34,835 nt of DNA, taken from a virus. Positions 3,309 through 34,250 of this stretch are shown here, in pieces. The DNA lies in IMG/VR virus record IMGVR_UViG_3300021976_000043, positions 1 through 34,835 of that record, one strand, 5' to 3'. Under the pieces are notes generated by a model. That model saw only the letters and a program-made list of their open reading frames with translations, did not search any database and was not told the DNA's origin. Made by a program: the position numbers and the translations under genes. Numbering within the stretch: position 1 is the first letter of the stretch; each line of letters starts with the position of its first letter.

Positions 3309-4082
3309 ATGCAATTCCTCACCCGCCTGAAGGACCGCCTGAAAAGCGCGCGCCCGGATATCGTCGAGCCGTCGCTTTTCCGGCTGGCACTCCACACCGA
3401 ATCCCTGCGCCTCAAGGACACCAAGCTCGGCAGCGCGTTACGAACGGTAAAAGCCAACGAATGGACCGACGAAGACCTGTCGATATTCGCGCGCATCGAA
3501 CTGGCCAGGCACCAGATCATGGCTAGCACCATGCCGCTGGGCGAACCCTACGGAGTCGGAACGACTGTCGGCCGGATGGCCGAGCGGGCGTCCAAGGGGT
3601 CGGACGAGGCCCGGCTGTTGTACCTGCTGACCCTCATCCAGGAGCCCATGGCTCCGCTGGAGATGGGCACCTGCTGTGGAATTTCCACGGCCTACCAGGC
3701 CCATGCCCTGCCGCTGCACTCGCTCCTGACGTCCCTGGAGCTGTCGCCGACCCTGGCTGGCGCTGCCCGCATGGTCCTCGACCTGTCCGGCGTCGACCCG
3801 AGCAAGGTGGACATCAGCATCGGGGACTTCGCTGACACCTTCCGGGACGCCATGGGCGACCCGGTGCCGGACTACGCGTTCGTGGACGGCAACCACTACT
3901 TCGGCCCGACCATGGCGTACTTCGGCGCGTTGGTCGACGAGTGCAAGCCGGGCGCGATGCTCGTCTTCGACGACATCAACTGGTCCGACGAGATGAAGCG
4001 CGCGTGGGCCGAGATCCAACAGCATCCGCGCGTAGCCGAGTACGCCGACGTCCACACCATGGGCATCGTGGTGCTCCGATGA
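3309..4082 (+). CDS. Class I SAM-dependent methyltransferase (Methyltransf_24 / O-methyltransferase-like), 257 aa
   Basis: A Rossmann-type methyltransferase follows an N-terminal helical region of about 110 residues. Motif I is LEMGTCCG (E118, G120, G124). The acidic residue after strand 2 is E144 in SLELS. A later DYAFVDGNH block (D188, D193, H196) and LVFDDINW (D221, D222) resemble small-molecule or sugar O-methyltransferases rather than DNA methylases; no DPPY/NPPF-type motif is present. A strong AAGGAG site precedes ATG 3309, making this a separately initiated gene after a 45-base, more AT-rich gap. It overlaps the lipoprotein gene by ATGA, so the two are coupled. The substrate is unknown; a cell-surface target would fit the neighbour. 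Confidence 0.85.
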   Translation: MQFLTRLKDRLKSARPDIVEPSLFRLALHTESLRLKDTKLGSALRTVKANEWTDEDLSIFARIELARHQIMASTMPLGEPYGVGTTVGRMAERASKGSDEARLLYLLTLIQEPMAPLEMGTCCGISTAYQAHALPLHSLLTSLELSPTLAGAARMVLDLSGVDPSKVDISIGDFADTFRDAMGDPVPDYAFVDGNHYFGPTMAYFGALVDECKPGAMLVFDDINWSDEMKRAWAEIQQHPRVAEYADVHTMGIVVLR

Positions 4083-4653: not shown

Positions 4654-4690
4654 GAACGGCCCTCCTTACCGCGAGTAGGGAGGGCCGTTC
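4654..4690 (+). terminator. Strong hairpin terminator after the lipoprotein gene
   Basis: Arms 4654-4669 and 4675-4690 form a 16-bp stem with one G-T pair around the loop CGCGA. It lies 14 bases after the lipoprotein stop. The following T-run is weak (TCTGT), as is common in high-GC phages. Confidence 0.85.
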
Positions 4691-4715: not shown

Positions 4716-4788
4716 TGACCCGTAGCTCAGTTGGTAGAGAGAGTGACCGTTAATCACTAGGTCGCAGGTTCGAGTCCTGCCGGGTCAG
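4716..4788 (+). tRNA. tRNA-Asn (anticodon GTT) with C at position 33
   Basis: All cloverleaf parts are present. The acceptor stem is 4716-4722 with 4781-4787 (7 perfect pairs) and the discriminator is G4788. The D arm is 4725-4740, where the outermost pair is a G-A mismatch. The anticodon stem is 4742-4746 with 4754-4758 (5 perfect pairs), with loop CCGTTAA. The variable loop is AGGTC. The T stem is GCAGG/CCTGC with loop TTCGAGT. The anticodon at 4749-4751 is GTT, reading AAC/AAU. CCA is not encoded. The base before the anticodon (position 33, base 4748) is C, not the nearly universal U. It sits between two terminator hairpins. Phage tRNAs usually supplement or replace host tRNAs. Confidence 0.92.
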
Positions 4789-4794
4789 CGTGAC

Positions 4795-4819
4795 CCCTCC
4801 CCGTCGCAGCCGGGGAGGG
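4795..4819 (+). terminator. Hairpin terminator after the tRNA
   Basis: Arms 4795-4803 and 4811-4819 pair perfectly over 9 G/C-rich base pairs with a 7-base loop, starting seven bases after the tRNA. The downstream T-run is short. It may end the tRNA transcript or help define the tRNA 3' end. Confidence 0.7.
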
Positions 4820-5621: not shown

Positions 5622-6017
5622 TCACGAGGTCTTCAGGTCGATGTCGGGGATGATGGTCTCGGGCTTGAAGATCACCCGGTAGTGATACTCGTCCACGTCG
5701 ATGGCCTCGGTCTGCTCGACGAAGTAGGACACGTTGTCGGATAGCCCGAGGAAGTGCTTCTTGAACTCGTCGGGGCCGATCTTGCAGGTGACCTCCAGGG
5801 AGCCTCCGAGTGCGGAGTCCCCGGACTCGACGGAGCACCGCCCCTCGATGGTCAACAGGTACTTGTCGGTGATGCCGTTGAAGAACACGATGCGGCGCTC
5901 AACCTCGAACTGCTCTGCCGCCTTGGACAAGTTCTTCGAGGCAACATCAGCATCCGATGAGCACGCACCGATCAGCAACAGGCTCGCCAGCGCCAGTCCT
6001 GCAAGAATTTTCTTCAT
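5622..6017 (-). CDS. Phage lipoprotein, 131 aa
   Basis: The start is ATG at 6017, giving MKK, a hydrophobic run and a lipobox ending IGAC, with Cys at residue 19. The mature part has ASKNLSKAAEQFEV, RRIVFFNGITD, EGRCSVE and LEVTCKIGPD, then a long C-terminal beta-type stretch. Two further Cys probably form a disulfide. From memory this matches a lipoprotein found widely in actinophages and prophages, with conserved FEVxRRIVFFNGITDxY and HFLGLSDNVSYFVEQ blocks; its function is unassigned. It stands alone on the - strand between hairpins, so it probably has its own promoter in 6018-6058. A role in superinfection exclusion is possible but unproven. Confidence 0.88.
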   Translation of the reverse strand: MKKILAGLALASLLLIGACSSDADVASKNLSKAAEQFEVERRIVFFNGITDKYLLTIEGRCSVESGDSALGGSLEVTCKIGPDEFKKHFLGLSDNVSYFVEQTEAIDVDEYHYRVIFKPETIIPDIDLKTS

Positions 6018-6058
6018 ACCAATCCGTCCGTTTCCGTTGTCATGCCATACTGGTCCGG

Positions 6059-8216: not shown

Positions 8217-8840
8217 ATGGTCCGCTGGGTAGAGACGATCATCGTCGAGGTCTGTAGCCGTTGCCATGAGAACAGCGGCTCGATGGTCCCGACGGATGCC
8301 TCGGAGGATGTGACGATCGGGGGTGTCGCGTACCGGCTCGATCTTTGCGCCGAATGCAAGAAGGAAATGTTCGACCCGTTCGCCACTGAGATCCAGCGGA
8401 TCGGCATCAAGGCCGGACCGCCCAGTCCGGGCAAGCCCCCAGCGTCGATGGCGAAGGCGTCGCAGCACTTGGTCCCCGGGCACCCGGAGATCACCAATGC
8501 ACTGGAATGTCCCGTATGTAAGCGAGTTACCACCATGTTCAACAATCTGCGAAAGCACATCGAGGACAGTCACTCGAAGTTCTACACATCCGACAAGGGC
8601 TTGCCCTGGGTCCTGTCGAGGAAGGGCAGCGGCCATAGCGTCCCCTGCCCATACTGCGGCGCGACGCCTAAGGGGGTGACCGGCCTCGGATACCACCTTT
8701 CCGCGCAACACGACAACATCTACCAGCCTGGACAGGCTGCACTGATCGTTGGTTTCCATCTCGCAGATGCGATGCGAGCCAACAAGACAGTTGAACCGTC
8801 GCCAATCCCTGGCATGGACAAGGCGAACAGTTCCGGCTAA
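8217..8840 (+). CDS. Zinc-finger protein with a four-Cys domain and two C2H2 fingers, 207 aa
   Basis: Three metal sites are readable. Residues 13-47 have CSRC and CAEC around GGVAYRLDLC, similar to the N-terminal zinc/strand domain seen in some phage Lsr2-like proteins. Then two regular C2H2 fingers follow: C98-x2-C101-x12-H114-x4-H119 and C144-x2-C147-x12-H160-x4-H165, identical in spacing. The fingers suggest sequence-specific DNA or RNA binding. A Pro-rich linker (67-77) separates the first domain. The gene starts two bases after the previous stop. It is followed by a 129-base gap (8841-8969) with no gene that I can support. Confidence 0.82.
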   Translation: MVRWVETIIVEVCSRCHENSGSMVPTDASEDVTIGGVAYRLDLCAECKKEMFDPFATEIQRIGIKAGPPSPGKPPASMAKASQHLVPGHPEITNALECPVCKRVTTMFNNLRKHIEDSHSKFYTSDKGLPWVLSRKGSGHSVPCPYCGATPKGVTGLGYHLSAQHDNIYQPGQAALIVGFHLADAMRANKTVEPSPIPGMDKANSSG

Positions 8841-32011: not shown

Positions 32012-32544
32012 TACGCGCTCCCTTCGGCGTGAAAGATCGTCTGCCTGCCGACGGTGGCGACCGGCGTGAAGCCGAGTCCGGCGTAGTCATGGATGAAGTT
32101 GTGGTCGGCTACCGGGCCGGTTGCTGGCTCGGTCCAGTCGACGGTGTAGACGTCTCGACGTGACCAGGCGCGGAGGTTGTCGACGGCGGCTTGGAGGTCG
32201 GACGGCGGGATGTGCATCAGCACTTCCACCGCCAGCACAAGATCAGATGCCCGTACCGGCCGGTACGTCAGCAGGTCGGCCTCGACCAGCCGGGGCCACT
32301 CGCCAAGAGCGGCGCGGGCCTCGGCCAGCCGGTCGGTGGAGATATCGATGCCGATATACGAGGCATCCGGCCACAGCTTCAGAGCGAGGGCGGCGATCCG
32401 CCCCTGGCCGACGCCGACTTCGAGAATCGATTTCGGGCTGATCTTGGACCACTCGTCGAGAAGAACAATCTCCTGAGCCCGGTGCGCCGGGCGATTGGGA
32501 AATGGCGGATGGATGGCCCAATAGGCGCGTGGGTCATATCCCAT
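32011..32544 (-). CDS. Class I SAM-dependent methyltransferase, 177 aa
   Basis: Motif I is ILEVGVGQGRIA, followed by YIGIDIS (acid at the ribose-binding site), VEADLLTY and VLAVEVLMHIPP, the order of a class I methyltransferase. No DNA-methylase motif is present. The start is ATG 32544. It lies directly between large terminase and portal, an uncommon position. The substrate is unknown: a virion protein, DNA-linked or small-molecule target are all open. Confidence 0.83.
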   Translation of the reverse strand: MGYDPRAYWAIHPPFPNRPAHRAQEIVLLDEWSKISPKSILEVGVGQGRIAALALKLWPDASYIGIDISTDRLAEARAALGEWPRLVEADLLTYRPVRASDLVLAVEVLMHIPPSDLQAAVDNLRAWSRRDVYTVDWTEPATGPVADHNFIHDYAGLGFTPVATVGRQTIFHAEGSA

Positions 32545-32561
32545 GCCGCAACCCCTGTCAG

Positions 32562-34250
32562 TCAGCTCAGGACGAGGACTCTTTGCTTCCTCGGTTCGCG
32601 GGTCTTCCCGATCCCCTTGGCAATCGCATCGAGGCGGGCCTTCCAGGCCAGCACCCCCGCGTAGGCGGCGTCGATCTTGTTGGGCGAGTCGGGGTAGCTC
32701 TTGTAGAGCAGGTAGCCCTGCGGCACCGTCCGGCGACGTGCGTTCAGCACATGCGCCGTGAGGTAGTAGCCGCCGTCGTGGGTCATCTCGCCGTTGACGA
32801 TGGCGTCGTGGGTGCGCTTCACCCACTCGACCATCCGGACGTCCTTGCCACGCGGCCACACCGCGATCGGGGCAGTCTGCGAGGCCTTCACCCTGAGCCG
32901 GTGCCCGAACTTGGCCTCCCACTGGGCCACGTAGGCGTTCCAGCCCGACGGGTCGGCGTAGAACCCGGCCACCTTGTACGTGGTGAACGCGGTCTTGACC
33001 GCCGAGTCGATCTGGTCGACCGGCGGCACCCATTCACGGTCCTTCGGGTCGCCCTGCCACACGGCGATCTCGAACAGGTGGCCGTCGGCCACCCGGCAGC
33101 CGATGAGCGCCGTCGCGTCGGCCCGACCGCGGGTGCGGCCCATCGAGCCGTCGAAGCCCATCGTGATCACGTCACCGGCCTTGACCGGCTCGACGTAGAC
33201 GCGCTCGCCGTCCTCGTCGACCGCGTGCTCGTAGTGCCGGGCTCGCCATTCGACGGCCGACACCCACGAGTCCGAGGCGTGGGTGATCTGGTTCAGGTAG
33301 TCCGACCGGGCGAGCTGGGGGTCCGTCGCCGGGTCCCAGATCCGCTCGATCTGCGACTCCAGGTCCACGTGCCCGGGCGCGCAGGGCGGCTCATGGAGCA
33401 CGCATCCGTCCGTGTGGCCGGACGAGTCGCCGTAGGAGTGACGCAGGCCAATGGTCAGCGATTCGCGGTCGCTCATGTCCGTGTCGGCCGGTGCCTCACG
33501 GTGGTCCCAGAGGATGCTGTCGGTGCGCGAGCGGCCCTCCCGGGCCAACTGCCACGCCTCAGCCGACTTCTCGGCCACCGACTCCTCGCCGGGGATGTAG
33601 GCGTTGGGAGCCTCGACCGTCCGGCCACCGTTCTTCGAGCAGTTGGTCCGGATGTACTGGGCCAACCGGATGCCGCCGTTGGACGGCACCCACTCCTCGG
33701 TCTGGTCGAGCACGGCGAACGTGGCCGGTGCACCCTTGGTGGTCCGCGCCGAGGACGTGATCTGCCGTATCGAGCCGCGCGGCAGGGCCACGAACGTGTC
33801 CATCGGGTCGACCCGGTACTCGTCGACGACCGGGCCTTCGCGCAGCATCTCCAGCAGCGGCTGCCAGGTGTTGCGGGTCTGCTCCTCCGACACGGCGGCA
33901 ATGTTCACCAGCGGTGTGCGGATCGTCGACCATGGCTTGCCGATCGGTTGGCCCGTGGCGTCCCAGCCGTCGAACACGGTGTCGGCCAGGCCCTCGACGA
34001 TCGCGAGCGCACCCAGCATCGGGGACTTGCCCCAGCCACGAGGCCTGCCGAGCACGGCCCGGTCGTACCGGAACCGGCCGGTGGCAGGGTCGATCTCGTA
34101 GTAGCGGAGCACGAAGTCTTCCTGCTCGCGGTACAGGATGAACGGCTCGTAGGAACCCTTAGCTGGTGCAGCCAGGTATTCGGCGATCCAGTCGATCACG
34201 TACCAGCCGAGTGTCGGAACCTCGCCCTTTGCCTTTGGCTTCCAGGGCAT
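32562..34250 (-). CDS. terL: Terminase large subunit, 562 aa
   Basis: The ATPase domain has Walker A GRPRGWGKS (K75, S76) and Walker B FAVLDQTEEW (D182, E185). The nuclease domain has GFDGSMG (D367), ADATAL (D378), GFYADPSGW (D433) and KIDAAYA (D527) as acidic metal ligands. Length and arrangement fit phage terminases that cut and pump DNA into the portal. ATG 34250 overlaps the TerS stop (TAATG). Confidence 0.95.
   Translation of the reverse strand: MPWKPKAKGEVPTLGWYVIDWIAEYLAAPAKGSYEPFILYREQEDFVLRYYEIDPATGRFRYDRAVLGRPRGWGKSPMLGALAIVEGLADTVFDGWDATGQPIGKPWSTIRTPLVNIAAVSEEQTRNTWQPLLEMLREGPVVDEYRVDPMDTFVALPRGSIRQITSSARTTKGAPATFAVLDQTEEWVPSNGGIRLAQYIRTNCSKNGGRTVEAPNAYIPGEESVAEKSAEAWQLAREGRSRTDSILWDHREAPADTDMSDRESLTIGLRHSYGDSSGHTDGCVLHEPPCAPGHVDLESQIERIWDPATDPQLARSDYLNQITHASDSWVSAVEWRARHYEHAVDEDGERVYVEPVKAGDVITMGFDGSMGRTRGRADATALIGCRVADGHLFEIAVWQGDPKDREWVPPVDQIDSAVKTAFTTYKVAGFYADPSGWNAYVAQWEAKFGHRLRVKASQTAPIAVWPRGKDVRMVEWVKRTHDAIVNGEMTHDGGYYLTAHVLNARRRTVPQGYLLYKSYPDSPNKIDAAYAGVLAWKARLDAIAKGIGKTREPRKQRVLVLS

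Follow-up and report, generated by a model that had tools for sequence, protein, structure and literature searches.

Uridine at position 33 (U33) is held to be invariant in elongator tRNAs. How is a phage-encoded tRNA-Asn(GUU) with a cytidine at this position (C33) to be read, i.e., as a working tRNA, as a gene in decay, or as an adaptation to enzymes that recognise U33? We studied this question for a 34,835-base virus record with 66% GC (the window in the following, i.e., the whole stretch of DNA that was analysed). In our best explanation, to which we assign a probability of about one half, the window gene is a supplementary phage tRNA with a recurrent viral C33 variant that is tolerated; the tRNA is real and probably functional. 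Its interest lies in a recurrent viral exception to U33 that host chromosomes hardly ever show. Natural C33 tRNAs furthermore offer a means to probe the U-turn base in decoding as well as the modifying enzymes of the host and the defence nucleases that read U33.

The tRNA-Asn gene of the window

The right part of the window holds leftward genes for terminase, portal, major head, tape-measure and collagen-like tail proteins, while its left part consists of small, mostly rightward genes with the tRNA-Asn(GUU) among them. With 66-67% identity, the large terminase resembles those of the Gordonia phages BearBQ, Apricot and Kuwabara as well as that of Mycobacterium phage Cornie. Based on this identity, we take the window phage to be a fragment of an actinobacterial siphovirus, where the siphovirus label is deduced from the tape-measure gene and these relatives.

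A preliminary description of the locus had reported a tRNA-Asn(GTT) with C33 at 4748 in a good cloverleaf as well as a G-A mismatch in the outer D-stem pair, and had proposed a tRNA model search and a comparison of related phages. The reported structure was borne out. ARAGORN calls a tRNA-Asn(gtt) at 4716-4789 on the plus strand, which is the sole tRNA of the record, and the Rfam model RF00005 aligns end to end with 4716-4788 (62.8 bits compared to a gathering score of 29, E-value 1.6e-11), i.e., the gene is recognised as a tRNA cloverleaf by both. The position audit places G10 (4725) opposite A25 (4740). In standard numbering, the anticodon loop reads C32 C33 G34 U35 U36 A37 A38, and with C33 the tRNA departs from the canonical elongator form. 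According to the preliminary description, another loop register that restores U33 would have overturned the claim; none was found. A register shift that puts a U at position 33 is ruled out, since it would break the anticodon stem with its five Watson-Crick pairs. The features are listed in Table 1.

Table 1. The tRNA-Asn gene, its parts and the neighbouring hairpins in window coordinates.
Feature	Position	Strand	Basis and remarks
tRNA-Asn(GUU) gene, positions 1-73, without encoded CCA	4716-4788	+	ARAGORN; Rfam RF00005, 62.8 bits; position audit
D arm (10-25)	4725-4740	+	outer pair G10/A25 mismatched, remaining three pairs Watson-Crick; position audit
Anticodon arm (27-43)	4742-4758	+	five Watson-Crick pairs, loop CCGUUAA; holds U36AAUC|A41, an AriB-type cleavage motif (PMC12409363)
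C33, base 5' of the anticodon, where nearly all elongator tRNAs have U	4748	+	position audit
Anticodon GUU (34-36)	4749-4751	+	ARAGORN; position audit
Hairpin just upstream of the tRNA, strong, 16 pairs, loop of 5	4654-4690		RNA fold
Hairpin closely following the tRNA gene, 9 pairs, loop of 7	4795-4819		RNA fold

The position audit further shows perfect acceptor and T stems and an equally perfect anticodon stem (27-31/39-43). The conserved positions U8, A14, G15, C48, G18, G19, A21 and Y32 are intact, and so are R37, G53-C61, T54, T55, C56, R57, A58 and Y60. With regard to charging, GUU and G73 are Asn identity elements, complemented by U1-A72 for GatCAB (PMC9976931, PMC4206432), and all of them are present in the window tRNA. 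GatCAB requires U1-A72, and in some Actinomycetales Asn-tRNA is obtained only via the GatCAB route (PMC4206432). The score is mid-range for phage tRNAs; the tRNA-Asn of Severus (62.1) and Shady (63.3), both with U33, reach comparable values. Where a tRNA pseudogene would show several broken stems or lost conserved positions and a low score, we find one mismatched pair, one lost conserved position and 62.8 bits.

Thermodynamic folding gives a less favourable picture. The bare transcript favours a non-cloverleaf structure by 3.2 kcal/mol, in which G30-A31-C32-C33 is paired with G45-G46-U47-C48. The anticodon stem has a probability of about 0.01, and it is equally improbable in only 2-4% of the phage tRNA-Asn genes compared. 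Given that the calculation leaves out modifications and tertiary contacts, we read the predicted misfold as a hint at a weakness and not as proof. The earlier suggestion that the tRNA may be impaired thus holds in part: the G-A mismatch and the predicted misfolding leave room for impairment, but the tRNA is otherwise intact and its score unremarkable. No evidence was found in support of a special decoding task or of a decoy, both of which had been proposed as well. Within a rough ORF set that includes a few overlapping frames, Asn makes up 2.6% of the codons (205 AAC and 30 AAT).

Occurrence of C33 in viral and cellular tRNAs

C33 is not peculiar to the window phage, i.e., it recurs in phage tRNAs of many isotypes. 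The nearest isolate tRNA is the tRNA-Asn(GUU) of Rhodococcus phage Jace (NC_047974, 53697-53769), which was isolated on Rhodococcus erythropolis; it is 85% identical to the window tRNA over 73 bases. These two actinophage tRNAs have C33, the loop CCGUUAA, U1-A72, G73 and the lack of an encoded CCA in common. Unlike in the window, the Jace tRNA shows a normal G10-C25 pair and another anticodon stem and is part of a cluster of six tRNAs. The loop CCGUUAA is also found in the tRNA-Asn of Bacteriophage 4A; U33 is found in the tRNA-Asn of Gaia, Nebkiss, Severus, Shady, Targaryen, C48C1 and PA5oct. That of Severus, a Fromanvirus mycobacteriophage, shares U1-A72 with the window but differs in its U33. 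Since some U33 tRNA-Asn are equally similar to the window tRNA, one cannot claim that Jace and the window owe their C33 to a shared ancestor. The nearest phages by terminase (BearBQ, Cornie) contain no tRNA in the stretches scanned.

Exact patterns of C33 tRNA-Asn match 91 stretches in IMG/VR, 48 with the D-loop GGTAG and 43 with GGCAG. For the closest stem class, 2 C33 stretches compare to at least 120 with U33, and for the GC-rich stem class 22 to at least 120, where the U33 counts are lower bounds such that the C33:U33 comparison provides bounds only. The mean number of anticodon-stem mismatches is 0.32 for C33 and 0.05 for U33 tRNA-Asn.

In cells, C33 tRNA-Asn is rare and, where present, often an extra copy, as follows from the counts for Actinomycetota and species genomes. 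The U33 tRNA-Asn pattern occurs in 284/397 Actinomycetota genomes; the matched C33 pattern occurs only in the seed genome, which had been picked for having it, and in 0/396 others. This is in accordance with the near invariance of U33 in elongator tRNAs stated in the preliminary description. When about 85,000 species genomes are searched, 32 stretches match the C33 pattern with GGTAG. Several of these lie within tRNA arrays, and for one of them ARAGORN does not call a tRNA. A separate U33 tRNA-Asn, insofar as it fits the pattern used, is present in at least 15 of the 28 bacterial genomes with a C33 copy. Taking the Actinomycetota genomes as a proxy for the host, the anticodon loop of the window tRNA differs from that of the host tRNA, as would be expected of an escape-type phage tRNA. 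A Micromonosporaceae MAG (L170:86-2017) contains an array of 21 tRNAs with C33 in Asn and six others, which looks like a prophage or mobile element.

We also read base 33 by ARAGORN for all tRNAs in the fetched viral loci and counted the distinct non-Asn tRNAs. In loci with U33 tRNA-Asn, C33 is found in 14/1466 (1%) of them below 50% GC and in 5/102 (5%) at 60% GC or more, compared to 47/306 (15%) in loci with C33 tRNA-Asn at 60% GC or more. The latter two differ with p=0.0055 (Fisher test), where the tRNAs of one or of related contigs are not independent. Between 50 and 60% GC, C33-Asn and U33-Asn loci show no difference in C33. Above 55% GC, Val(GAC), Thr(CGU, GGU) and Arg(CCU) tRNAs carry C33 most often, and samples of 13-22 tRNAs contain none with C33 for Trp, Tyr, Phe and Arg(ACG). 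There may be a constraint at the level of isoacceptors. With regard to stem mismatches, U8, A14 and the D-loop GG, C33 tRNAs are as good as U33 tRNAs above 50% GC. C33 as an Asn-specific feature is ruled out, since many isoacceptors carry it.

The high-GC contigs richest in C33 are L343 (10/35 tRNAs), L012 (10/30), L349 (8/27) and L339 (5/9), of which L343 and L349 have most of one tRNA array in common. Seven contigs (L343, L349, L012, L347, L322, L339 and L342; GC 0.64-0.68) hold 5 to 10 C33 tRNAs each, of various isotypes and with otherwise sound anticodon arms. In the literature searched, we found no mention of C33 in the tRNA sets of high-GC viruses. We consider C33 across the tRNA sets of some of these viruses more interesting than the single window gene.

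Expected effects of C33 and competing explanations

Eukaryotic initiator tRNAs carry C33 and function on the ribosome. They resemble the window tRNA-Asn in this base but are initiators and not elongators, and are unrelated to it by descent. The minimal motif of the bacterial TGT is U33-G34-U35 in a 7-base loop (PMC4425180), and Q34 should therefore fail in the window tRNA if the host makes Q. A review counts C33 among the anti-determinants of the bacterial t6A enzyme (PMC9654439), so t6A37 is perhaps blocked as well; the human mitochondrial OSGEPL1 is insensitive to base 33 (PMC7102964). In yeast, U33C results in an impaired tRNA-Gln phenotype, and a SUP4 U33C was built to probe the U33-dependent Elongator reaction (PMC3664417, PMC11096365). 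By inference, C33 probably yields an undermodified and somewhat weaker tRNA, which should still be chargeable given that the Asn identity elements do not include base 33.

For a tolerated variant, we picture a maintained and structurally intact extra tRNA-Asn of an actinobacterial siphovirus, which would receive its Asn from AsnRS, or through ND-AspRS and GatCAB, and would decode AAC and AAU. C33 would be tolerated because the tRNA merely tops up a host pool that already holds U33 tRNA-Asn, and high genomic GC may raise the frequency of C33. The tRNA would be expressed, charged and able to decode, more slowly but sufficiently, at the loss of U33-dependent modifications. Sequence and comparison directly provide the cloverleaf, the identity elements, C33, its viral recurrence and its near absence in actinobacterial genomes. 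In favour of tolerance are the normal score, the intact conserved and identity positions and the perfect acceptor, anticodon and T stems, together with the C33 of Jace and of the 48+43 IMG/VR stretches, the many isoacceptors, the link to high GC and the soundness of C33 tRNAs in general. The near absence in hosts and the U33 copy beside C33 in at least 15/28 genomes fit as well. Against it stand the G10-A25 mismatch, the predicted non-cloverleaf fold, the anticodon-stem mismatches within the C33 tRNA-Asn set, the lack of tRNAs in the scanned stretches of the nearest phages by terminase, and the reduced function of U33C in yeast.

A possible but doubtful alternative is an escape, i.e., C33 would render the tRNA a poor substrate for VapC-type nucleases or for the Q34/t6A37 enzymes, so that the phage tRNA would persist while the tRNA-Asn of the host is cleaved in defence. 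The nuclease resistance suggested in the preliminary description is plausible and agrees with a published hypothesis, by which mycobacteriophage tRNAs escape anticodon nucleases through mutations in the loop (van den Berg et al. 2023, PMC10264068); these tRNAs are phage-encoded with a loop unlike the host's, as in the window, and that text names neither Asn nor position 33. The tRNA-Asn(GUU) of mycobacteriophage D29, an actinophage tRNA like that of the window, is cut in its anticodon loop by M. tuberculosis VapC52, which depletes host tRNA-Asn (PMC13273310); therefore, a suitable nuclease exists in actinobacteria. The TGT motif (PMC4425180), the t6A anti-determinant (PMC9654439) and the frequency of C33 in viruses, with its near absence from actinobacterial genomes, point in the same direction. 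However, the window tRNA keeps the target sequence preferred by AriB, a known tRNA-Asn nuclease (PMC12409363), and C33 is therefore no general nuclease shield. Other actinophages, moreover, keep U33 in their tRNA-Asn, and the scatter of C33 over many isotypes and its tracking of GC, as expected of drift, are explained by tolerance or drift no less well than by a targeted escape. Early decay, in which a redundant phage tRNA is losing its function with C33 and G10-A25 as the first two lesions, appears unlikely to us. Two departures from the consensus in one tRNA, the rarely seen anticodon-stem probability and the tRNA-free scanned stretches of the nearest phages would agree with it, but the remaining conserved positions, the identity elements and the score are those of a normal tRNA, and C33 also occurs in the otherwise sound Jace tRNA and in further tRNAs that are not otherwise degenerate.

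The window stems from a single metagenome contig, and the true base at 4748 might be a T. Such a sequencing or assembly error is very improbable, since the isolate phage Jace and dozens of other contigs show the loop CCGTTAA as well. Even less credible is a cytidine deaminase that edits C33 to U33 after transcription: a trans-acting corrector would allow for the many C33 tRNAs found together in some high-GC contigs, but no deaminase is among the scanned ORFs, which are a subset of the ORFs of a genome fragment. For bacteria, we are not aware of any earlier case of editing at position 33. Going beyond the window gene, it is conceivable, if a long shot, that viruses of high-GC bacteria repeatedly swap U33 for C33 across their tRNA sets, which would give them tRNAs that translate and are poor substrates for U33-needing VapC-type nucleases and for Q34/t6A37 synthesis. 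If true, viral and host tRNAs would differ in a general and hitherto undescribed way, on which defence and counter-defence act.

Surroundings of the tRNA gene

The tRNA gene is closely flanked on both sides by strong hairpins (4654-4690 and 4795-4819). Judged from their predicted folds, the upstream one is possibly a terminator of the upstream gene or a processing signal, the downstream one possibly a terminator. A promoter and terminator scan found nothing, including no U-tailed terminator at 4654-4690.

For the upstream methyltransferase, the sole homologue found (L049) is not accompanied by a tRNA, and for the downstream 74-aa ORF no relative was found. No tRNA-Asn is present in 80 loci that encode relatives of a VG64-like protein near the tRNA gene. 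This VG64-like protein (5625-6026, minus strand) is related to Mycobacterium phage VG64 (PF25682), has 174 relatives in viral contigs and is labelled a recombination directionality factor in some phages. Methyltransferase-like proteins are encoded at 3309-4082 (plus strand, Methyltransf_24 match) and at 32014-33033 (minus strand, Methyltransf_25 match), where the latter frame partly overlaps the terminase gene. Finally, a 207-aa protein at 8217-8840 (plus strand) shows weak matches to C2H2-type zinc fingers.
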